The notes below the pieces were generated by a model. The model did not search any database. It was not told the DNA's origin and worked only from the letters and a program-made list of their open reading frames with translations. Shown here piece after piece: positions 1,808-28,225 of a stretch of 30,271 nucleotides of DNA. Where the stretch lies: positions 1-30,271 of IMG/VR virus record IMGVR_UViG_3300021356_000110. One strand, written 5' to 3'. The stretch's first letter is position 1; each line of letters opens with the position of its first letter. A program made the position numbers and the translations under genes. The stretch is from a virus.

Positions 1808-3535
1808 ATGGCCGTTGTACAGATATCTCGTATTCAACACAGACGTGGCAGAAAAAATCAAGGAAGTGGATTACCTCAACTTGCATCAGGTGAAATAGGA
1901 TGGGCTATTGACACCCAAGAACTTTACATTGGTAATGGTGCGGTGTCTGAAGGTTCGCCGCAAGTTGGTAATACAAAAATCTTAACTGAAGCAGATGATC
2001 TACTAACAACAGTTGGAAATTATGCTTATAAAAGAGGTGAAATACAAACAGGCGAAGCCATTAGTAGTCCAGTAGAAAGAACACTACAAGAAAAATTAGA
2101 TGATATTGTTAACATTAGAGACTTTGGTGTTGAAAGCAGCACAGAAGATCAAACTGTAAAAATACAACGTGCTATTGATCAACTGTTTTTAAATCCAGCA
2201 TCAAAGGGTTTAGCTAAAAGCAGAATTAAATTATATTTTCCTGCAGGTGAATACTACATCGGAGGCAGTGGTTTAAGAGTTCCTCCATACGCAAATCTTA
2301 TTGGTGATGGAATAGACAAGACCACAATTTTGAGTCTTGCAGATAATTCGCCTGCTCATATTTTCCAAACTGTAAATGACACCAGTGTGCCTGGAACATA
2401 TGCTGATCCAAGTACAACAGATTCAACCAATATGGCTCGTAATATTACTATTCAAGATATGACAATCACTCACACAAGTTATGGTGGTGCAATCTTACTA
2501 GAAAATTGTAAAGACAGTGAATTTGAAAATATCAAAATCAATGGATCTTGGAGCAATGGATTAGCAATTAACAGTGATGGCGATCCTGCAAGTAATTGGA
2601 TTGGTATATATCTTTCAAACGGTAGTGTTGCAACAGCAACCACTGATAATAACATATTCAAAAATGTGCATTACAATGGATTAAGTTGTGCAGTATGGAG
2701 TGATTACGACATAAATTACAACAAATTTATGTTTGGCAAGGCAGAAAATTGTGGTATTGGATTTAGTCTTGGAGGAGACGCACTTACTGTGCTTCCGGTA
2801 GGAAAACAAAATGGATCACAACATACTTTAATTAAAGATTATGTATTTGATGCAATTGACAAACAGGGTATTTACGTTCGCACTGGTAATTACAACCGTA
2901 GTGAAAGTAACACATTCTTAAATGTAGGCAGAGACAACAGTAGCAGCGTGGTTGTAACACCTGTGATTGAATTTTATAAAAATGATGTTACTGGTATTTC
3001 TGATGCAGACTATAGAGATATGGATTTCAACAGCAGCGTAAATGATTACTTCCAAAGAACGCAAGAATTAACAGTTGACGATTTATATTTTTCACAAGAT
3101 TACCTACCAGAAATAAAAGGTAGTAAAAGGACTAATTTAAATTTTCCTGTAAAAAGAGAAATTGGTGCAATTTTAGACACAGGTAGTGTAGAAACTGATG
3201 GTACTACAATCATTAGATTGCCAGCTGATTCCAACAGAGGTACTATTGAGCTTAATTATATGTACAGGGCAGAAGTATCTCCTGGACCAGTTTATCAGCA
3301 AGGTACTATAAGGATTTTGTATAATAAATTATACACAGGTGCAAGTATTAGTTTTAATGATGACTACGTTTTTACAGGTAACCCTAGTAAGGCAGGACTT
3401 CTAGTATTTGGTATTAGAGGCAATGCATTCCAAAACAGTGATACAGAAATACACATTAATGCATTCAACACTGTTATTGATTCACTATCTCCAGTTGATG
3501 ACGAACTAGAATTCTCAATTAAATATATAGTTTAA
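1808..3535 (+). CDS. Tail fibre or tailspike with pectate-lyase-type beta-helix
   Basis: A 575-residue structural protein. The first 75 or so residues (RIQHRRGRKN, LASGEIGWAIDTQELYIGNG) match the short N-terminal domain common to marine phage fibres and hyaluronidase-type tail proteins. This is followed by the entry motif of pectate-lyase-3 folds (IRDFGVESS, then a helix with AIDQL and FPAGEYYIGG). Residues of roughly 110-420 are Asn/Gly/Ile-rich with the repeated short strands of a parallel beta-helix. The C-terminal 150 residues look like a separate beta-sandwich. Expected role: host receptor binding or glycan cleavage at the tail tip. A clear CAGGAG precedes the ATG and a late-type promoter lies upstream. 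Its 3' end shares one base with the next start (TAATG). Catalytic residues cannot be assigned by eye. Confidence 0.8.
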   Translation: MAVVQISRIQHRRGRKNQGSGLPQLASGEIGWAIDTQELYIGNGAVSEGSPQVGNTKILTEADDLLTTVGNYAYKRGEIQTGEAISSPVERTLQEKLDDIVNIRDFGVESSTEDQTVKIQRAIDQLFLNPASKGLAKSRIKLYFPAGEYYIGGSGLRVPPYANLIGDGIDKTTILSLADNSPAHIFQTVNDTSVPGTYADPSTTDSTNMARNITIQDMTITHTSYGGAILLENCKDSEFENIKINGSWSNGLAINSDGDPASNWIGIYLSNGSVATATTDNNIFKNVHYNGLSCAVWSDYDINYNKFMFGKAENCGIGFSLGGDALTVLPVGKQNGSQHTLIKDYVFDAIDKQGIYVRTGNYNRSESNTFLNVGRDNSSSVVVTPVIEFYKNDVTGISDADYRDMDFNSSVNDYFQRTQELTVDDLYFSQDYLPEIKGSKRTNLNFPVKREIGAILDTGSVETDGTTIIRLPADSNRGTIELNYMYRAEVSPGPVYQQGTIRILYNKLYTGASISFNDDYVFTGNPSKAGLLVFGIRGNAFQNSDTEIHINAFNTVIDSLSPVDDELEFSIKYIV

Positions 3536-3993: not shown

Positions 3994-6306
3994 ATGATTC
4001 AAGTTACCAAGCGTGACGGACGCCGTGAGCCGTTAGACATCGAAAAATTACACAAAGTTGTTTTTTATGCTACAGAAAATATTACAGGCGTTAGTCCAAG
4101 CGAGGTAGAAATTAAGAGTCAGATCCAATTTTTTAATGGAATGCACACAAGTGAAATCCAAGAAACACTTATCAAAGCAGCAGCAGATCTTATCAGTGAA
4201 GAAACACCAAACTATCAGTTTGTAGGTGGTAGACTTATTAATTATGCACTACGTAAAGAAGTTTACAATGGCTACGAGCCATGTACAGTAAAAGAATTAG
4301 TAGAGCGCAACACAGAAAAAGGTTTTTATGATCCAGAACTGATAACCTATTACGATGATGAAGAATGGGATGCTATAAATAGTTTTGTTAAACACGAGCG
4401 TGATGAAAATCTAACTTATGTTGCCATGGAGCAGTTGCGTGGTAAGTATTTGTGTCAGAACAGAGTATCAGGTGAAATATTCGAAACACCACAGATGTGT
4501 TATGTGCTGATTGCAGCAACATTGTTCCAAGGATATCCAAAAGAAACAAGGTTGCGTTGGGTAAAGGATTATTATGACGCTATTAGCCTACATGATATTA
4601 GTCTTCCTACTCCTGTTATGGCTGGAGTACGAACGCCTCAGCGGCAGTTCTCTTCATGCGTCCTTATTGAAACTGACGATAGTCTTGATAGCATCAATGC
4701 TACTAGCGCAAGCGTTGTTAAGTACGTAAGTCAAAAAGCAGGTATTGGTATAGGTGGCGGAAGTATCCGTGCTATTGGCAGCCCAATACGTAAAGGTGAT
4801 GCATATCACACAGGTATTATTCCATTCTACAAAATGTTCCAAGCAGCAACAAAGTCATGCAGCCAAGGTGGTGTGCGTGGTGGAGCAGCTACAATCTACT
4901 ATCCAATTTGGCACTTAGAAGTAGAGGATATGTTGGTGCTGAAGAACAACAAAGGCACAGAAGAAAATCGTGTGCGTCATATGGACTATGGTGTGCAGTT
5001 TAACAAGTTGATGTATGAGCGTCTTATCACAGGCGGAGATATTACATTGTTCTCACCAAGTGATGTGCCAGGACTTTACGATGCGTTTTTTGCTGACCAA
5101 GACAAGTTCCGTGAGCTATATGAAACAGCAGAGCGCAATACAAGACTACGTAAGAAAACTATTCCAGCAGCACAGTTGTTTGGTGCGTTTATGGAAGAAC
5201 GTAAAAACACAGGACGTATCTACTTACAGAATGTAGACAATGCAAATGATCACGGTGCATTCCTTCCAGAGGTTGCACCTATTAGACAAAGTAATTTGTG
5301 TGCAGAAATTGACTTGCCAACAAAGCCATTAAAAGATCTAAATGATCCTGAAGGTGAAATTAGCCTTTGCACATTGAGTGCTATTAATTGGGGTAATGTG
5401 CGCACACCAGCAGACTTTGAAAAGGCTTGTACACTTGCAGTGCGTGGACTAGATGCACTACTAAGTTATCAAGGTTATCCAATACTTGCCGCAGAACTTT
5501 CTACAAAGAAACGCCGTCCTATTGGTGTTGGTATTATTAACTTTGCATATTGGTTAGCCAAGCATGACCTAACATATCAAGACATTGACACACAAGGATT
5601 AGAACTTATCGACGAGTATGCAGAAGCATGGTCATACTATCTAATCAAAGCAAGTGCAGATTTAGCAGTAGAGCAAGGTGCTATCAGCGGCACATTAGAA
5701 ACAAAGTACGGACATGGTATTACACCAAACATGACCTACAAAAAAGATTTAGACGAATTGATTAAACATAAAGAACGCATGGACTGGAAAGGTTTGCGTA
5801 AGCAACTAAAAGAAACAGGCATCCGTAACAGCACACTAATGGCACTAATGCCAGCCGAAACAAGTGCGCAGATTGCAAATGCTACAAACGGAATTGAGCC
5901 ACCACGTAGCCTTATCAGTGTAAAGCAATCAAAGCATGGTGTGCTTAAACAAGTAGTACCAGAGTACAAGCGACTAAAGAACAAATATGATCTACTTTGG
6001 GATCAACGTAGCCCAGAAGGTTATATTAAAATTATGGCAGTGCTACAAAAATATATTGACCAAGGCATCAGCGTAAACACAAGTTACAATCCAATCTACT
6101 TTGAAGATGAAAAGATTCCTATGAGCTTGATGTTACAGCATATGTTGATGTTTTACAAATATGGTGGTAAACAGTTATACTACTTTAACACACATGATGG
6201 ACAAGGCGAACTAGATGTAAGCAAACTTGTTGGTGAAGCAGAAGTACCACAAACAAACGGCTATCACATTGAGGATGATGAGGAATGTGAAAGTTGCGTA
6301 ATTTAA
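3994..6306 (+). CDS. nrdA: Ribonucleoside-diphosphate reductase, class Ia alpha subunit
   Basis: A 770-residue enzyme reducing ribonucleoside diphosphates to deoxy forms. An ATP-cone allosteric domain occupies about residues 1-90 (VTKRDGRREPLDIEKL). The catalytic set is complete: Cys222 in FSSCVLIE, the NLCAE motif with Asn434, thiyl-radical Cys436 and Glu438, and the radical-transfer tyrosine pair Tyr729-Tyr730. The C-terminus ends CESCVI, so the redox-relay cysteines (765, 768) are spaced as CxxC rather than the wider E. coli spacing. Full length compared with about 760 for E. coli NrdA. It is followed by nrdB and a glutaredoxin, giving a self-contained dNTP supply module. The ATP cone suggests dATP feedback is retained. 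Confidence 0.96.
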   Translation: MIQVTKRDGRREPLDIEKLHKVVFYATENITGVSPSEVEIKSQIQFFNGMHTSEIQETLIKAAADLISEETPNYQFVGGRLINYALRKEVYNGYEPCTVKELVERNTEKGFYDPELITYYDDEEWDAINSFVKHERDENLTYVAMEQLRGKYLCQNRVSGEIFETPQMCYVLIAATLFQGYPKETRLRWVKDYYDAISLHDISLPTPVMAGVRTPQRQFSSCVLIETDDSLDSINATSASVVKYVSQKAGIGIGGGSIRAIGSPIRKGDAYHTGIIPFYKMFQAATKSCSQGGVRGGAATIYYPIWHLEVEDMLVLKNNKGTEENRVRHMDYGVQFNKLMYERLITGGDITLFSPSDVPGLYDAFFADQDKFRELYETAERNTRLRKKTIPAAQLFGAFMEERKNTGRIYLQNVDNANDHGAFLPEVAPIRQSNLCAEIDLPTKPLKDLNDPEGEISLCTLSAINWGNVRTPADFEKACTLAVRGLDALLSYQGYPILAAELSTKKRRPIGVGIINFAYWLAKHDLTYQDIDTQGLELIDEYAEAWSYYLIKASADLAVEQGAISGTLETKYGHGITPNMTYKKDLDELIKHKERMDWKGLRKQLKETGIRNSTLMALMPAETSAQIANATNGIEPPRSLISVKQSKHGVLKQVVPEYKRLKNKYDLLWDQRSPEGYIKIMAVLQKYIDQGISVNTSYNPIYFEDEKIPMSLMLQHMLMFYKYGGKQLYYFNTHDGQGELDVSKLVGEAEVPQTNGYHIEDDEECESCVI

Positions 6307-6308
6307 GA

Positions 6309-6337
6309 TTGACAAACGGACCAGATCCGATTATAAT
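6309..6337 (+). promoter_or_regulatory. Sigma70-type promoter for nrdB-grx
   Basis: TTGACA at 6309-6314 and TATAAT at 6332-6337 are both exact consensus hexamers with 17 bases between them. They lie just after the nrdA stop and 26 bases before the nrdB ATG. A purine-rich binding site (AGAGAGAGG) precedes the gene. This indicates expression by host RNA polymerase early in infection, separately from nrdA. Confidence 0.85.
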
Positions 6338-6363
6338 TTAATACATACAGAGAGAGGAATACT

Positions 6364-7491
6364 ATGAGCGTTTTTGACGTAGAAAATCGTGCCAACCATA
6401 CAGAAGTGTTGGCGTTCTTGGACCCAACAGGTGGTCCTACAATCCAGCGTTATGATACGCTGAAGTATAAAAGTTTTGATAGTTTAACAGATAAACAGTT
6501 AGGATTTTTTTGGCGTCCTGAAGAAGTAGACATCTATAAAGATGCAAAAGACTTCAAAGGTTTGACTGATCATGAGCAGCATATCTTCACAAGCAATCTC
6601 AAGCGTCAAATCCTATTGGACAGTGTGCAAGGGCGAGCACCAGTAGAAGCATTTGGTCCTGTGGTTAGTTTGCCAGAGCTAGAGAACTGGATCCAAACTT
6701 GGACGTTTAGTGAAACTATCCATAGCCGCAGTTACACCCATATCATTCGCAACGTGTACAGCAATCCAAGTAAAATCTTTGACGAGATGTTGGACATTGA
6801 GGAAATTGTTGACTGTGCAGGAGACATCTCAAAGTATTACGATGACTTAATTGAACAAGCAGGCTACTATAATTTGTTAGGTGCAGGAACCCACACAGTG
6901 AATGGTAAAAAAGTTAATGTTGATTTATACGAACTAAAGAAAAACATTTGGCTTACACTTATGAGCGTGAACATTCTTGAAGGTGTGCGTTTCTACGTAT
7001 CGTTTGCTTGCTCATGGGCATTTGCAGAGCTAAAGAAAATGGAAGGCAATGCAAAGATTATCAAACTAATCGCACGTGATGAAAACTTGCACCTAGCAAG
7101 CACACAGATGTTGCTAAAAGTTTTACAAAAAGATGATCCAGACTTTGCCAAAATTGCAAAAGAAACTGAACAAGAATGTTTGCAAATGTTTGTAGATGCA
7201 GCAGATCAAGAAAAGGCTTGGGCAGAATATTTGTTTAAGGATGGCAGCATGATTGGTTTAAACACCCAGTTGTTAGGCGATTATGTTGAGTGGATTGCTA
7301 CACGCAGAATGACAAATGTAGGCCTTAAGAGTCCTTACAATATAAAGAGCAACCCGTTGCCTTGGACACAGAAGTGGATATCAGGTGCTGATGTACAAGT
7401 GGCTCCACAAGAAACAGAAATCACATCATATGTATCAGGTGGTACAAAGCAGGATGTGAGCACAGACACATTTAAAGGATTCTCATTATGA
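6364..7491 (+). CDS. nrdB: Ribonucleoside-diphosphate reductase, class Ia beta subunit
   Basis: A 375-residue radical-generating subunit partnering NrdA. The diiron and tyrosyl-radical residues are visible and offset by two from E. coli: Asp86 in LLDSVQGRAP, Glu117 and His120 in SETIHSRSY, and radical Tyr124. The second-half ligands lie in EGVRFYVSF and ARDENLHL. The C-terminal tail (about residues 345-375) is flexible and ends in GFSL, as expected for the part docking on NrdA. The stop overlaps the glutaredoxin start (ATGA), so the two are coupled. It has its own consensus promoter. Confidence 0.96.
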   Translation: MSVFDVENRANHTEVLAFLDPTGGPTIQRYDTLKYKSFDSLTDKQLGFFWRPEEVDIYKDAKDFKGLTDHEQHIFTSNLKRQILLDSVQGRAPVEAFGPVVSLPELENWIQTWTFSETIHSRSYTHIIRNVYSNPSKIFDEMLDIEEIVDCAGDISKYYDDLIEQAGYYNLLGAGTHTVNGKKVNVDLYELKKNIWLTLMSVNILEGVRFYVSFACSWAFAELKKMEGNAKIIKLIARDENLHLASTQMLLKVLQKDDPDFAKIAKETEQECLQMFVDAADQEKAWAEYLFKDGSMIGLNTQLLGDYVEWIATRRMTNVGLKSPYNIKSNPLPWTQKWISGADVQVAPQETEITSYVSGGTKQDVSTDTFKGFSL

Positions 7492-10379: not shown

Positions 10380-10479
10380 TGGCTCCGGGGGTAGGACTCG
10401 AACCTACACGGTAAATATTTTGCGTACATCTACCACACGATAAACAGTCGTGCGTGTCTACCTATTCCACCACCCCGGA
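10380..10479 (-). tRNA. Unusual tRNA: GUU (Asn) anticodon on a class II, long-variable-arm body
   Basis: Read on the minus strand, all arms are present. The acceptor stem is TCCGGGG/CCCCGGA with discriminator G and an encoded CCA. The D-arm (GTG...CAC with loop GAATAGGTAGA) is the leucine-tRNA type. The anticodon stem is CACGA/TCGTG with loop CTGTTTA, giving anticodon GUU. The variable region is about 28 nt with a seven-pair stem (GGTAGAT/ATTTACC). The T-arm is canonical: GTAGG, TTCGAGT, CCTAC. First pair U1-A72, G73 and GUU are features of tRNA-Asn. The D-loop and long variable arm belong to Leu/Ser-type tRNAs, and U37 is unusual. It lies five bases behind the synthetase-like gene on the same strand. 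A Leu- or Ser-accepting tRNA cannot be excluded. Confidence 0.85.
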
Positions 10480-10484
10480 TTAAG

Positions 10485-11327
10485 TTATGCTGCCTGGGCT
10501 AATGCCTGTTGCTTGTCTAGTGCAGCAATCATTCTTGTCATACCAATACCGCCTCCAACTCTTTGGAAGAAGTCAAACTTCAAAAACTCTTCTAGTTCTG
10601 CTTCAACACGTTCTTTGCCAAACAGTTTGTAAAGCAATGCACTGTATTCGCCATCTGTTATACTGTGGAATGTGTACCGCATCATGTCAACATCGCAACT
10701 ACGTTCTGCACTACCAATAGTCTCCATTCCGCCCAAGATAACATCCATCTTTTTAGCAGTCTCACCATCATCGTTCCTACTCATATTCCAAAATGGTGAT
10801 GTCATTTCTGGGAAGTTGGTAATCAAACTGCTACCAAATTGTGCTTCCATAGCTAGTTCGTGATCTGCATCCATTTCTTCAAGTTCATCTAATCCAAAGT
10901 GTTCTTGCCATTCTGCATATGTTTTTTCTGTAAGTGGATCAAATCCTAGGTATTCACATAGTTCATATTCCATTGCTTTGAGATCATCTACACTGCCAGG
11001 AAACTCAAACTCAAACATAGGAAAGATTATGTCGTGTCTGCCTGGTATTGCATTTGGCTCTTGTCTATAGGAAGTGCTGACACAAAAAAACCCCTTGCTA
11101 TTGGGGCTGCTTAATAGTTCATGTTCTAACCACATCTGGCCTGTTTGCGGTAACGGCCAAACATTGCCTGCATAGTTATACGTTGCTACATTGAACGGAT
11201 CTTCACAAGCGGCTAGTATGCTTAATCTATTTTGTGTATGGACTTCTTCAAAACCTTTGTCCAAAAAAAATGACCTTAAAAGGCCAACTGTCTTTGTAAA
11301 CTTTGTGGGTGATATTAGTTGTGTCAT
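10485..11327 (-). CDS. AsnRS-like class IIb synthetase core lacking the anticodon-binding domain
   Basis: A 280-residue protein with the class II synthetase core. PLPQTGQMWLEHELL resembles the LTVSGQLYLE region of AsnRS. Motif 2 is SYRQEP (Arg88, Glu90) with GRHD behind it, followed by FPEMTSPFWNMSR and GGMETIGSAER, which resembles the EIIGGSERE region of AsnRS/AspRS. Motif 3 is VGGGIGMTRM (Arg265). It lacks the roughly 100-residue N-terminal OB-fold that reads the anticodon in AsnRS. Archaeal AsnRS paralogues without this domain make asparagine instead of Asn-tRNA, and AsnA shares the GGGIG motif, so two functions are possible. The tRNA is five bases downstream. The ATG is preceded by AAGGAG. 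It is one of two protein genes on the minus strand. Confidence 0.8.
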   Translation of the reverse strand: MTQLISPTKFTKTVGLLRSFFLDKGFEEVHTQNRLSILAACEDPFNVATYNYAGNVWPLPQTGQMWLEHELLSSPNSKGFFCVSTSYRQEPNAIPGRHDIIFPMFEFEFPGSVDDLKAMEYELCEYLGFDPLTEKTYAEWQEHFGLDELEEMDADHELAMEAQFGSSLITNFPEMTSPFWNMSRNDDGETAKKMDVILGGMETIGSAERSCDVDMMRYTFHSITDGEYSALLYKLFGKERVEAELEEFLKFDFFQRVGGGIGMTRMIAALDKQQALAQAA

Positions 11328-11393: not shown

Positions 11394-11403
11394 GTTATTT
11401 ATC
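11394..11403 (-). promoter_or_regulatory. Putative late promoter for the synthetase-tRNA unit
   Basis: On the minus strand GATAAATAAC lies 66 bases before the synthetase ATG. It matches the TAAATA core recurring elsewhere and ends four bases short of the tmRNA -35 box, so the two promoters are back to back. No sigma70-type alternative is obvious on this strand. Confidence 0.35.
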
Positions 11404-11406
11404 AGG

Positions 11407-11437
11407 TTGACATCTTTTTTGTTCTATGTTATAAATA
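11407..11437 (+). promoter_or_regulatory. Promoter of the tmRNA gene
   Basis: TTGACA at 11407-11412 and TATAAA at 11430-11435 are separated by 17 bases, a strong sigma70 promoter. The -10 region also reads TATAAATA, the exact T4 late consensus, so it could be used both early and late. Transcription would begin near 11442, at the 5' end of the tmRNA acceptor segment. Confidence 0.75.
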
Positions 11438-11439
11438 GC

Positions 11440-11745
11440 TGGTAGGCGTTACAAAGCGTATTTGGACTCCGGGGCGGTACCGGACGCCTCCACCATAAAC
11501 ACATGAGAGTAGATGCACCTGCTTTCCTGTGCATAGGACAAGAGCCGAGAGGCAACAAGTCGTGTGTTTATGATGGGGGCGACATAGGATTCGACAGGTA
11601 GGCAAGTTTACAAAACACAAATGCAAACGATAACTTTGCACCTTCTGGATTTGCTCTAGCAGCGTAATCTAAGGGGGTTGGTCACTTACCTAGCAACAGA
11701 AAAGTGGCACTTACACACACGGGTGAAACATTTTATAGTTAGAGA
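11440..11745 (+). ncRNA. ssrA: Permuted (two-piece type) tmRNA
   Basis: The acceptor half comes first. A T-arm TCCGG/CCGGA (11468-11484, loop GGCGGTA) is followed by CGCCTCC and ACCA ending at 11495. The coding half starts at 11575 with GGGGGCG, pairing with CGCCTCC over seven pairs including the G3-U70 wobble that marks alanine acceptance. GGATTCGACAGG follows as in known tmRNAs. The intervening 11496-11574 segment is bounded by ATAAACACATG and CGTGTGTTTAT, which extend the stem and are presumably cut away. The tag frame is at 11623-11667. The T-loop is non-canonical. The 3' end of the coding half is uncertain. tmRNA with SmpB rescues stalled ribosomes and tags the nascent chain. The permuted layout is typical of alphaproteobacteria. 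Confidence 0.85.
11623..11667 (+). other. tmRNA proteolysis-tag reading frame
   Basis: From resume codon GCA the frame reads ANDNFAPSGFALAA then TAA. The AND(N) start and the ALAA end are hallmarks of SsrA tags; the C-terminal LAA is recognised by ClpXP and the N-terminal part by SspB-type adaptors. This confirms the tmRNA call and shows the tag is intact. Confidence 0.88.
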
Positions 11746-11768: not shown

Positions 11769-12869
11769 ATGAAACTATTTAAACTATTGGCCGCATCACT
11801 TATGTTGATGGGGTCTTTCGGCTTGGCTGCAAGTGCAGGAGAGCCAAAAGATAAAGTAACAGTCGGGTTTGTTTACGTAGGACCAACAGGTGACCACGGT
11901 TGGACATACAGACACGACATTGGTCGTCAGCAAGTTGAAGAAGCTTTCGGCGACAGAGTAGAAACAAGATTTGTAGAGTCAGTTGCTTATGGTGCAGACG
12001 CTACTAGAGTTTTTACACAGATGGCTATGCAAGGTGTAGACATTATTTTTGGAACTAGTTTTGGATATATGGATGCAATGTTAGAAGTTGCAGAGAAGTT
12101 TCCAAACACAAAGTTTGAACACGCAACTGGTTATAAAACCAATGGCACTAACATGGCCAACTACGGATTGCGCCTCTATCAAGCAAGACACGTTCAAGGT
12201 GTTGTTGCTGGTATGATGACAAAGACCAACAAGATTTGTTACGTGGCAGCATACCCTATTCCAGAAGTTGTGCGTGAAATCAACACATACTATCTCGGTG
12301 CCAAATCTGTCAATCCTGACGTTGATATAGACATAGTATGGGTTTACACTTGGTATGATCCAGGTAAAGAAAAAGACGCAGCAGATGCGCTATTCAACAA
12401 TGGTTGTGACGTGATTGCACAGCACACAGATTCGCCTGCTCCAATCCAGGCAGCAGAAGAAAGAGGCCTAGTTGGTTTTGGTCAAGCAAGTGATCAGTAT
12501 CGTTTTGCTCCAAAAGCACAGTTGACAGCAACTATTGACAACTGGGGACCATACTATGTTGCAAAAGTTGGTGCATTGTTAGACGGAACTTGGACTACAG
12601 CTTGTGACGGACCAGATGGTTGTTACTTTGGACATATGAACGATGGATCAGTTGAAATGGCTCCATTTACCAATATGCCAGCAGAAGTAGAAGCAAAAGC
12701 ACAAGCGGTCAAGGATGCTATCCGTGACGGTGAATACTTTGCATTTACAGGTCCAATCTACGACAACAAAGGCAACTTACAACTTGCAGAAGGTGAAGTT
12801 GCAGACAGAGCACATCTTGATTCAATGATGTACTATGTTGAAGGTATTGACGCAGAGTTGCCTAAATGA
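11769..12869 (+). CDS. BMP-family periplasmic substrate-binding protein
   Basis: A 366-residue exported protein. Residues 1-23 form a signal peptide (basic start, hydrophobic core, cleavage after ASA). The mature part is a BMP/PnrA-type binding protein: VGFVYVGPTGDHGWTY at the start, GVDIIFGTSFGYMDAM, the Tyr-rich centre, GCDVIAQHTDSPAPIQAAEERG and DRAHLDSMMYYVEGI at the end. Family members bind nucleosides or related small molecules for an ABC importer; the ligand here is unknown. No permease or ATPase lies nearby, so it would have to use a host transporter. AAAGGA precedes the start and the tmRNA lies directly upstream. The next gene overlaps by four bases (ATGA). Confidence 0.88.
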   Translation: MKLFKLLAASLMLMGSFGLAASAGEPKDKVTVGFVYVGPTGDHGWTYRHDIGRQQVEEAFGDRVETRFVESVAYGADATRVFTQMAMQGVDIIFGTSFGYMDAMLEVAEKFPNTKFEHATGYKTNGTNMANYGLRLYQARHVQGVVAGMMTKTNKICYVAAYPIPEVVREINTYYLGAKSVNPDVDIDIVWVYTWYDPGKEKDAADALFNNGCDVIAQHTDSPAPIQAAEERGLVGFGQASDQYRFAPKAQLTATIDNWGPYYVAKVGALLDGTWTTACDGPDGCYFGHMNDGSVEMAPFTNMPAEVEAKAQAVKDAIRDGEYFAFTGPIYDNKGNLQLAEGEVADRAHLDSMMYYVEGIDAELPK

Positions 12870-14065: not shown

Positions 14066-14858
14066 TTTTATTGCGGCTATGGATCACAGCGGAGGCAGCA
14101 CAGGTGGTGTGTTGGAACGCTATGGTCAAAAATACAAAGAAAGCAATAAGATGGAACTGGTCCACGAGATGCGACTACGTATGGTAAAGTCGCCCGACTT
14201 TACAAGCGAAAATATTTGGGCCGCAATACTTTACAAAGATACTGTGGAGCGTGGTATGGTTCCTGTGCTAAAAGCCAAAGGCATAGAAGCGTATCTAAAA
14301 ATAGACAGCGGCTGTGAGGACAATGGATATCTAAAATACTTCCGTTGGAACGAAATGACAGACTTTGCAAAGGAACATGGCTGCACAGGAACTAAGATGC
14401 GCAGTATTGTAAAGTCGGACAAAGACCTATCAATGATATTGGATCAGCAGTTTGCACTAGCCGAAGGCATATACGGTGAAGGACTGATGCCTATCGTTGA
14501 ACCAGAAATACCTATTGAACATCCAGACAAAGAACTTTACGAATACAAACTTCGTGATGAACTTGCAGAAAGATTAGATGCTTTTAACGGACGTTGTATA
14601 TTGAAACTGACATTGCCTGAACAGGATGACTTTTATTCCGGTATAATCCCACACGATCGTGTTGAACGGGTTGTTGGATTGTCAGGTGGATACAGCACAG
14701 AAGAAGCCTGTAGGAGATTGAGAAGACAGCGTGGAATGACAGCAAGTTTTTCAAGAGGATTGAGTGAAGGTTTGTTTGCATCACAAACTGATGAAGAGTT
14801 CAATGAACATATAACTAAAAACATACACATGATAAGGGAGGCTGGCAATGGCATATAA
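14058..14858 (+). CDS. fda: Class I fructose-bisphosphate aldolase
   Basis: The frame is open from 13977, but the ATG at 14058 with ACAGGAG is the start, giving 266 residues. The sequence follows bacterial/cyanobacterial class I aldolases: AAMDHSGGST at the N-terminus, TGTKMRS, the Schiff-base lysine Lys183 in LKLTLPEQDDFY, LSGGYSTEEA and the phosphate-binding ASFSRGLSEGL. It interconverts fructose-1,6-bisphosphate with two triose phosphates. It is about 30 residues shorter than cellular forms at the N-terminus. In the phage it may steer carbon toward pentose phosphates and nucleotides. It overlaps both neighbours (8 and 11 bases). Confidence 0.9.
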   Translation: MSDFIAAMDHSGGSTGGVLERYGQKYKESNKMELVHEMRLRMVKSPDFTSENIWAAILYKDTVERGMVPVLKAKGIEAYLKIDSGCEDNGYLKYFRWNEMTDFAKEHGCTGTKMRSIVKSDKDLSMILDQQFALAEGIYGEGLMPIVEPEIPIEHPDKELYEYKLRDELAERLDAFNGRCILKLTLPEQDDFYSGIIPHDRVERVVGLSGGYSTEEACRRLRRQRGMTASFSRGLSEGLFASQTDEEFNEHITKNIHMIREAGNGI

Positions 14859-15273
14859 AACAAGCGCAAACCTATTTGAAGTAGGAGACTTTATCAGTCA
14901 CGCAGGTAACAAACTACCATGGAAGATTGAATGTGATGCAATCCGTCCAGAGTGGTGGGATGGACTAGCACGTATGGTTATGGATTATCAAGAAAGACCA
15001 TTTTACAAAGCAGTGGGTATTCCAAGAGGCGGAATACCATTTGCACAAGCTATGAACAAATATGCAAGTGGTGATCCCAATGATCAGATTATGATTTGTG
15101 ATGATGTGTTTACCACAGGCACAAGTTTTAAGGAGTTCATACGAGAAAACTATCCTGACTGGACAATGGGTCAGGGCTATCGTTGGGTGGTGTTTGCAAG
15201 GCAACCTTGTTATGAACATCCTCATCATGTGCGAGCCTTGTTTACAATGCCCAAGCCTCCATACAAACGGTAA
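14848..15273 (+). CDS. Phosphoribosyltransferase-like protein
   Basis: A 141-residue type I PRTase-like protein. The PRPP-binding loop is IMICDDVFTTGTSFKEF, and GIPRGGIPFAQAMNKYA upstream matches the pyrophosphate-binding part. The product may belong to nucleotide salvage or orotate-PRTase-like chemistry; the base substrate cannot be read from sequence. It is short compared with orotate PRTases (about 200), so it may be a core version. A strong AAGGGAGG precedes the ATG, inside the aldolase end. It closes the 11769-15273 cluster. Confidence 0.8.
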   Translation: MAYKTSANLFEVGDFISHAGNKLPWKIECDAIRPEWWDGLARMVMDYQERPFYKAVGIPRGGIPFAQAMNKYASGDPNDQIMICDDVFTTGTSFKEFIRENYPDWTMGQGYRWVVFARQPCYEHPHHVRALFTMPKPPYKR

Positions 15274-27487: not shown

Positions 27488-28225
27488 ATGAGGGCAATAC
27501 TATACGGGGCTATCCTGTCATTGGTTCTCGCAAGTGCAGCGTATGCAAACGAGATTTACATCACACAAATTGGTGACACATTAGACTTGGATATTACCCA
27601 AGATGGAACAGATAACGAGTTTGGTGATTCAACCACCGATGTAACTCTGGACGGTGATGATATGACGTTCAGCATAACACAAACAGGTAACAGCAATATT
27701 ATTGATGCTAAAATAAAAGGTAATTCATATACTGGTACTTGGACTTTTACAGGCAACAACAATTTTGTTGATTTGGTCTGTGATGATACATCAGGTGTAA
27801 ACTGTGAAAACGTTACGCTGAATATTGCAACACAAGGCGATACCAACAAGTACTATCTAGAAATTGGTGAAACAGCAGATGCTGACGGAGCACAGGTAGA
27901 CTTTGAAGTAGACGGTGACGGAAACATATTGATCACTGAAGTAGATGGAACAAGCGCAGTAGTAAACATTACATTAGATAACAGTAACACCATAAGCACA
28001 GCAACAACATCAGATTCAACATCAACATACACATCAGGACAAGGTGGTACGGTAATCGAGATAGATCAAGATGGAGATGGCGACAGTGCAGGACACAGCG
28101 TTACCCTTGACATCACCGGCGGCGGCAGTAACTACTACATTAAACAAAGCGGTGTTAAAGACAACACAGTAGATGCTACATTCTCAGGTGACGAGCATGA
28201 TGTTGATATTACGCAGTCTGATTAG
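27488..28225 (+). CDS. Curlin-like amyloid subunit 1
   Basis: A 245-residue exported protein. The signal peptide ends at YANEI (residues 1-20). The mature protein starts NEIYITQIGD and has repeated Q-x-G-x-x-N-type strands (ITQDGTDNEFGD, ITQTGNSNIIDA, then degenerating Asp/Asn/Thr-rich repeats to IKQSG and ITQSD), typical of CsgA/CsgB curlin repeats. Expected to be secreted unfolded through CsgG and polymerise as amyloid on the cell surface. Repeats are less regular than in E. coli and more acidic. It contains a Cys pair (CDDTSGVNC). GGAGG precedes the ATG at 11 bases. The 3' end overlaps the FecR gene by 29 bases. Confidence 0.82.
   Translation: MRAILYGAILSLVLASAAYANEIYITQIGDTLDLDITQDGTDNEFGDSTTDVTLDGDDMTFSITQTGNSNIIDAKIKGNSYTGTWTFTGNNNFVDLVCDDTSGVNCENVTLNIATQGDTNKYYLEIGETADADGAQVDFEVDGDGNILITEVDGTSAVVNITLDNSNTISTATTSDSTSTYTSGQGGTVIEIDQDGDGDSAGHSVTLDITGGGSNYYIKQSGVKDNTVDATFSGDEHDVDITQSD

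Follow-up and report, generated by a model that had tools for sequence, protein, structure and literature searches.

In a 30,271-nucleotide stretch of DNA from a marine phage (IMG/VR record IMGVR_UViG_3300021356_000110; hereafter the window), we found a gene for a single-domain enzyme with the fold of asparaginyl-tRNA synthetase (AsnRS), directly followed by an unusual tRNA-Asn with a long variable arm. The pair recurs across hundreds of phages, and relatives of the enzyme in cell genomes frequently lie beside pyrimidine genes. We infer, with a probability of roughly 0.4, that the phage enzyme would convert asparagine, bicarbonate and ATP to L-dihydroorotate and so stand in for CarAB, PyrB and PyrC; reaction, substrate and the role of the tRNA are all part of this proposal.

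The enzyme and its tRNA

The enzyme (280 aa; positions 10485-11327, minus strand) belongs to PHROG 29758, a group of unknown function, and most other open reading frames (ORFs) of the window are found on the opposite, plus strand. Pfam tRNA-synt_2 matches it with an E value of 2.5e-15, and it carries a class II motif 2 (TSYRQEPN), a motif 3 (GGGIGMTR) and the pocket motifs QTGQMWLE and ETIGSAER. An AlphaFold2 model calculated from 36 sequences of the enzyme family reached a mean pLDDT of 93. In a structure search, residues 1-275 of this model could be aligned to AsnRS over its catalytic domain alone, the best match being AsnRS with bound Asn-adenylate (8h53; Z 26.6, rmsd 2.4, 250 residues). 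AspRS (Z up to 25.4), EpmA/GenX (23.5) and archaeal asparagine synthetase A (3rex, 23.3) were matched as well, each again in its catalytic domain alone. Since we counted Z differences below 1 as ties, AsnRS is preferred over AspRS mainly on sequence motifs. The whole 280 aa were aligned to the catalytic domain, and an N-terminal OB-fold anticodon-binding domain is absent, as the preliminary description of this DNA had claimed from the sequence. Searching solved structures with the single sequence gave no match; a profile was required.

All curated NCBIfam models touched by the enzyme score far under their cut-offs. The full-length AsnRS model TIGR00457 (asnS) reached 28.1 bits (cut-off 342.6) and the asparagine synthetase A model PRK06462 19.6 bits (cut-off 389); the EpmA/GenX model did not match the enzyme at all and matched some relatives weakly. 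By these membership tests the enzyme stands outside AsnRS, AS-AR/AsnA and EpmA, although their fold is the same and their mode of action may be similar. Its key residues are strongly conserved: across 325 family sequences E68, R88, E202 and R209 are invariant and ETIGSAER nearly all so, and of the class II motif 2 and 3 arginines R88 is kept in 325 of 325 and R265 in 322, with three gaps. In sequence and profile alignments QTGQMWLE resembles QSGQLYNE of AsnRS, while the lysine of the AspRS motif QSPQLFKQ is missing and leucine found there; judged from these alignments, the pocket is of the Asn type rather than the AspRS type.

The tRNA lies on the same strand (10380-10479; RF00005, 49.6 bits) and starts at 10479, five bases after the stop codon of the enzyme gene, which ends at 10485; here, too, the preliminary description was right. 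CCA is encoded (10380-10382), G73 is at 10383, and the acceptor stem is formed by 10473-10479 with 10384-10390. The anticodon GUU (10443-10445) sits in a loop, CUGUUUA, with an unusual U37, and the true anticodon arm reads CACGA-CUGUUUA-UCGUG. The variable arm (10408-10435) measures 28 nt, compared to 13-32 nt in distinct relatives and 39 nt at locus L196. Energy folding of the window tRNA alone did not recover the cloverleaf. Covariation in 19 relatives did support it: 99.6% of cells were paired and 16 of 27 pairs had changed on both sides, a level matched by none of 500 shuffles, with slid controls nowhere near. The long variable arm itself is paired (helix 4; 98.2% of cells, three pairs with changes on both sides). 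The window tRNA is a genuine tRNA-Asn, maintained by selection and built on a class II body. We rejected the 'Asp, ATC' anticodon proposed by ARAGORN, since it depends on an anticodon arm placed out of register and covariation backs the GUU reading.

Among 94 distinct copies, selected by GUU and a long arm, G73 was present in all, U1-A72 in 89 and A1-U72 in five, whereas pairs 2-71 and 3-70 were variable; U37 was kept in 86. The window tRNA has G73, U1-A72 and U37. With the anticodon filter switched off, 87 of the 88 distinct tRNAs directly downstream of the enzyme still had GUU, the exception being L196 with GUC. Anticodon and G73 are the known determinants of bacterial Asn identity, U1-A72 is the determinant for amidation on tRNA-Asn, and long variable arms are a feature of Leu, Ser and Tyr tRNAs (PMC9976931). 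By its nucleotides, the window tRNA carries Asn identity in anticodon and acceptor (GUU, G73, U1-A72). Canonical tRNA-Asn has a short variable loop and A37, the t6A site; the window tRNA has neither. U37 is unusual because it excludes t6A37, which is odd for a tRNA decoding codons that start with A, and the D arm resembles that of tRNA-Leu.

Several further tRNAs deviate from expectation. Seven copies (L012, L013, L022, L023, L025, L026, L037) contain an extra T in the T stem (GCATGG-TTCGAAT-CCTGC), either a bulge or a decaying copy. L427 (the record of L243) has a long-arm GUC (Asp) tRNA tens of kilobases from the enzyme; the GUC tRNA of L196 lies directly after it. In the 484-kb phage LR756508 (L436), a UUG (Gln) and a UCG (Arg) tRNA at 6919 and 7713 also parse with variable arms of 28-29 nt, and more tRNAs that combine a class II shape with an unusual identity may exist in huge phages. 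In P-SSM7, the tRNA annotated as Leu (UAA; L081:3872-3944) has, when parsed, a variable loop of 5 nt where a long arm would be expected.

Linkage in viruses and gene context

Whether gene and tRNA stay linked in other phages had been set as a test beforehand, and the linkage holds in both directions. IMG/VR protein scans returned 572 enzyme relatives in one case and at least 600 in others; the family is present in well over 500 viral contigs, and the enzyme-tRNA arrangement recurs in more than 140 loci, so it is not due to chance. Among the 80 closest loci, scored by finder or by eye, the tRNA follows the gene in all except L005, L006 and one truncated contig, mostly within 30 nt; L005 and L006 encode enzymes more than 90% identical to that of the window and have no tRNA near. 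In the cyanophage set our first finder detected the tRNA in 65 of 80 loci; the nine remaining non-truncated loci have C33, and their tRNA was seen by eye or with a widened finder. P-SSM2, P-SSM5 and P-SSM7 have a long-arm GUU tRNA 7-9 nt downstream of the enzyme. In the P-SSM2 record (NC_006883.2, L082) tRNA-Asn is annotated at 164094-164179 inside another ORF; in fact it follows the 'tRNA ligase' directly, about 2.0 kb before the annotated position.

In the reverse direction, 99 viral stretches match the tRNA pattern. Four of them start too near the tRNA to judge; in each of the 95 testable ones a short gap separates the tRNA from the enzyme gene, which lies immediately upstream in the same orientation. 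Which genes and further tRNAs flank the pair varies from phage to phage. Most of the distant viral family members are found without the tRNA. Inspection of a dozen large viral records revealed canonical Asn tRNAs in some and no distant copy of the long-arm GUU tRNA, and an IMG/VR search from the 484-kb phage protein gave no match. On a tree of 85 family members the tRNA label changes at least four times, so the link was either gained repeatedly or lost repeatedly; the common odd U37 loop favours, as we read it, a single origin followed by losses. On the same tree the tRNA-linked phage clade nests with pyr-linked enzymes from cells.

The window also encodes a short PyrE-like phosphoribosyltransferase (14848-15273, plus strand), which has the PRPP-loop ICDDVFTTGTS and weak Pfam and NCBIfam matches below cut-off; it is 38% identical to its homologue in a pyrD-enzyme-pyrF-pyrE cluster of Pasteurella atlantica. 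Its gene lies 3.5 kb from that of the enzyme and is common to many phages with the pair; among GenBank phages the protein found no match. The large and small subunits of ribonucleotide reductase (3994-7491, plus strand) provide a nucleotide supply context, and a substrate-binding protein of the nucleoside-binding PnrA/Bmp type (11769-12869, plus strand; PF02608, E 1.7e-51) has counterparts in the loci of 11 of 80 close relatives. Reductase, PnrA-like and PyrE-like proteins fit a nucleotide-supply programme.

Head to head with the enzyme gene, we observed a permuted, two-piece tmRNA of alphaproteobacterial type (11403-11711, plus strand; tag ANDNFAPSGFALAA). Permuted tmRNAs also stand beside the pair in L003, L014, L018, L041 and L049 and may point to alphaproteobacterial hosts. 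Elsewhere in the window, 1808-3535 encodes a protein with an Mtd_N (major tropism determinant) N-terminus and 27488-28225 a secreted curlin-repeat protein. The preliminary description had regarded Asn-rich curlins as a possible use of the pair. This idea found no support: the curlin-like ORF is rich in Asp (13.8%) with just 7.3% Asn, and the Asn content of the window ORFs is ordinary (5.4%).

Cell relatives beside pyrimidine genes

A scan of one genome per bacterial or archaeal species yielded 129 enzyme relatives, of which we kept 80; most are 48-66% identical to the phage enzyme, and one apparent phage contig, L315, reaches 78%. The carriers are Patescibacteria, Dependentiae, Chlamydiae, Nanoarchaeota, Bacteroidota and Proteobacteria. 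No such tRNA was found near these relatives, except on the phage-like contig L315. Instead, pyrE/pyrF and/or pyrD neighbour the enzyme gene in 29 of the 80 loci (checked with Pfam/NCBIfam in three). In the complete genome of Pasteurella atlantica the order is pyrD-enzyme-pyrF-pyrE; family models confirm its PyrD and PyrF, and its PyrE is atypical. In Ca. Bandiella the enzyme comes first in a run with pyrF, a pyrE-like gene, a PyrD-like ORF and a PRPP-synthetase-like ORF.

We then compared the pyrimidine enzymes of carriers and controls. Among 31 carrier genomes, about two thirds of them chosen as pyr-linked and many incomplete, matches over cut-off were obtained for PyrB in two, CarB in four, PyrC_multi in one, PyrC_dimer in none and DHODH in 24. 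The 14 control genomes had PyrB and CarB in 14 of 14, PyrC_multi in 11, PyrC_dimer in one and DHODH in all. Within the order around G022, the enzyme is present in seven of 150 genomes, each of them one of the 23 without PyrB (p 8e-7, uncorrected for kinship); within the order around G028, the five known carriers are all among the 11 of 36 genomes without PyrB (p 0.001, likewise uncorrected). In one of the two PyrB exceptions, G020, the enzyme is encoded on a contig with several virus-like ORFs. The Coatesbacteria genome G015 holds the enzyme plus PyrB/PyrC, several Bacteroidota encode PyrC_multi-like proteins under cut-off (180-260 bits), and the seven of 31 carriers without a DHODH match are small Patescibacteria, Nanoarchaeota and Dependentiae.

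Between the tRNA-linked phage clade and the pyr-linked members, just two well-conserved positions differ, V47/I and I169/L. Since the conserved residues scarcely differ between phage and cell groups, both probably share a core reaction, which the sequences suggest to be on asparagine. This weakens the earlier idea of a phage-specific aminoacylation.

Proposed reaction and alternatives

We propose that this family of single-domain AsnRS-fold enzymes binds asparagine and ATP, forms an adenylated intermediate and in cells would replace CarAB, PyrB and PyrC at the start of pyrimidine synthesis. N-carboxylated (carbamate) asparagine would be adenylated, and the side-chain amide nitrogen would then close the ring. 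Dethiobiotin synthetase is a precedent for ring closure through an activated carbamate, and the mass balance (Asn + CO2 = dihydroorotate + H2O) is exact; on these two grounds we propose asparagine-dependent dihydroorotate formation, although we know of no AsnRS-fold enzyme that makes dihydroorotate. The phage enzyme, with the same catalytic residues, would make pyrimidine precursors past the feedback-controlled first steps of the host, acting together with the PyrE-like protein and ribonucleotide reductase. The tRNA would be co-inherited because both draw on one asparagine pool: it might keep Asn codons read while the enzyme drains asparagine, or bring tRNA-made asparagine to the enzyme.

This pyrimidine reading is favoured by the cell enzymes, which mostly occur in genomes lacking CarB, PyrB and PyrC and often beside pyr genes, by the nesting of the phage clade with them, by the AsnRS-like pocket and the invariant E68, and by the PyrE-like, PnrA-like and reductase genes of the window. 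Against dihydroorotate formation stand the carriers without DHODH (7 of 31), G015 with its enzyme and PyrB/PyrC, and the sub-cut-off PyrC_multi-like proteins of Bacteroidota. In addition, it does not by itself explain why several distinct phage lineages all have a GUU tRNA of this kind next to the enzyme. In an unlikely variant, which agrees with the data, pyrimidine synthesis would be tRNA-dependent, and the phage tRNA would be an asparagine carrier and not mainly a decoder. A non-discriminating AspRS of the host would, together with GatCAB, make Asn on this tRNA, which its Asn/Asp identity (GUU, G73), U1-A72 and the missing A37 would permit; the enzyme would turn that Asn into dihydroorotate in one step and so replace CarAB, PyrB and PyrC.

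The main rival would explain the tRNA directly. As a dedicated AsnRS, the enzyme would charge its own long-arm tRNA with Asn through the acceptor end and the long arm, not the anticodon, and would supply Asn-tRNA that does not depend on host enzymes and may resist anticodon nucleases, with the pyr-linked cell members used otherwise. We consider this less probable than dihydroorotate formation, but a serious candidate. It agrees with the linkage in both directions and its recurrence in several lineages, with the identity of the tRNA (GUU in 87/88, G73 in 94/94, U1-A72 in 89/94) and with AsnRS bound to Asn-adenylate as the top structural match; a precedent is offered by phage tRNAs known to escape anticodon nucleases (PMC10264068). 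However, cell members without such a tRNA nearby keep the same conserved residues, the tRNA is lacking at L005, at L006 and in most of the distant viral members, the pocket of L196 is unchanged despite its GUC tRNA, and the conserved U37 is odd for decoding codons that start with A. Thus, of the dedicated aminoacylation pair suggested in the preliminary description, the linkage, the Asn identity of the tRNA and the AsnRS-like pocket stand, while the wider family without the tRNA and the pyr operons speak against it. A dual role is possible.

Three other explanations appear considerably weaker. An asparagine synthetase of the AsnA/AS-AR kind (Asp + NH3 + ATP to Asn), forming a joint Asn-supply unit for translation with the tRNA-Asn beside it, would fit the structural match to archaeal asparagine synthetase A (3rex, Z 23.3), the weak PRK06462 match and the identity of the adjoining tRNA. 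We nevertheless regard it as rather unlikely, because the PRK06462 score (19.6 versus 389) is so low, leucine takes the place of the aspartate-binding lysine of AspRS, and both the pyr operons and the missing CarB and PyrB would be left without explanation. Slightly less plausible still is another ligase use, in which an amino acid is attached to a protein or small molecule (compare EpmA), or a role as pyrimidine-gene regulator (compare HisZ for histidine). The EpmA/GenX match (Z 23.5) and the pyr operon context are consistent with it, but the invariant or nearly invariant motif 2 and 3 arginines argue for catalysis over a bare regulator, and we found no partner protein common to all groups. 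Finally, the tRNA could be a hitchhiker, part of a phage tRNA cluster and functionally unconnected to the enzyme. Many of these phages do have other tRNAs near, but with the enzyme directly upstream in 95/95 testable pattern matches, though neighbours vary, and with GUU retained without an anticodon filter, this is very improbable.

In the open-access literature (few preprints, no subscription papers), we found no description of such a phage AsnRS-tRNA pair or of dihydroorotate formation from asparagine. In general, genes for tRNA synthetases and for de novo pyrimidine synthesis have been described from huge phages (PMC7162821). The family has so far been annotated only as 'tRNA ligase' or 'unknown', and its function is now directly testable. 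If dihydroorotate formation is true, a single small enzyme does the work of the three carbamoyl-phosphate steps in a pathway regarded as near-universal, and this new pathway occurs in symbionts, predatory bacteria and abundant ocean phages, which could bypass the main control of pyrimidine supply in their hosts. If aminoacylation is true, the phages have a naturally minimal synthetase whose partner is a tRNA-Asn of class II shape, and this orthogonal pair would be useful for genetic-code work.

Compared to known systems, the enzyme is closest to the catalytic domain of AsnRS (8h53, 9sh8, 1x54; residues 1-275, Z 25.6-26.6, rmsd 2.4-2.8 Å), with which it shares QxGQxxxE and class II motifs 2 and 3; it differs from AsnRS in sequence (about 20% identity) and in having no N-terminal OB anticodon-binding domain. 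AS-AR (3p8t, 3reu, 3rex; Z about 23) is likewise a single-domain protein of similar length without anticodon domain, but the phage enzyme family has invariant QTGQMWLE/ETIGSAER-type motifs and linkage to a tRNA or to pyrD/E/F. EpmA/GenX, the EF-P lysine ligase, is also a class IIb paralogue without anticodon domain, but a lysine enzyme. CarAB, PyrB and PyrC are unrelated proteins, with dihydroorotate as the proposed common product. The 'tRNA ligases' of cyanophages P-SSM2, P-SSM5 and P-SSM7 belong to the same family (65-67% identity), and their tRNAs have no encoded CCA, unlike that of the window. With class II tRNAs (Leu, Ser, bacterial Tyr) the window tRNA shares the long variable arm and, in the case of tRNA-Leu, a similar D arm, but it combines this body with the Asn anticodon GUU, G73, U1-A72 and U37.
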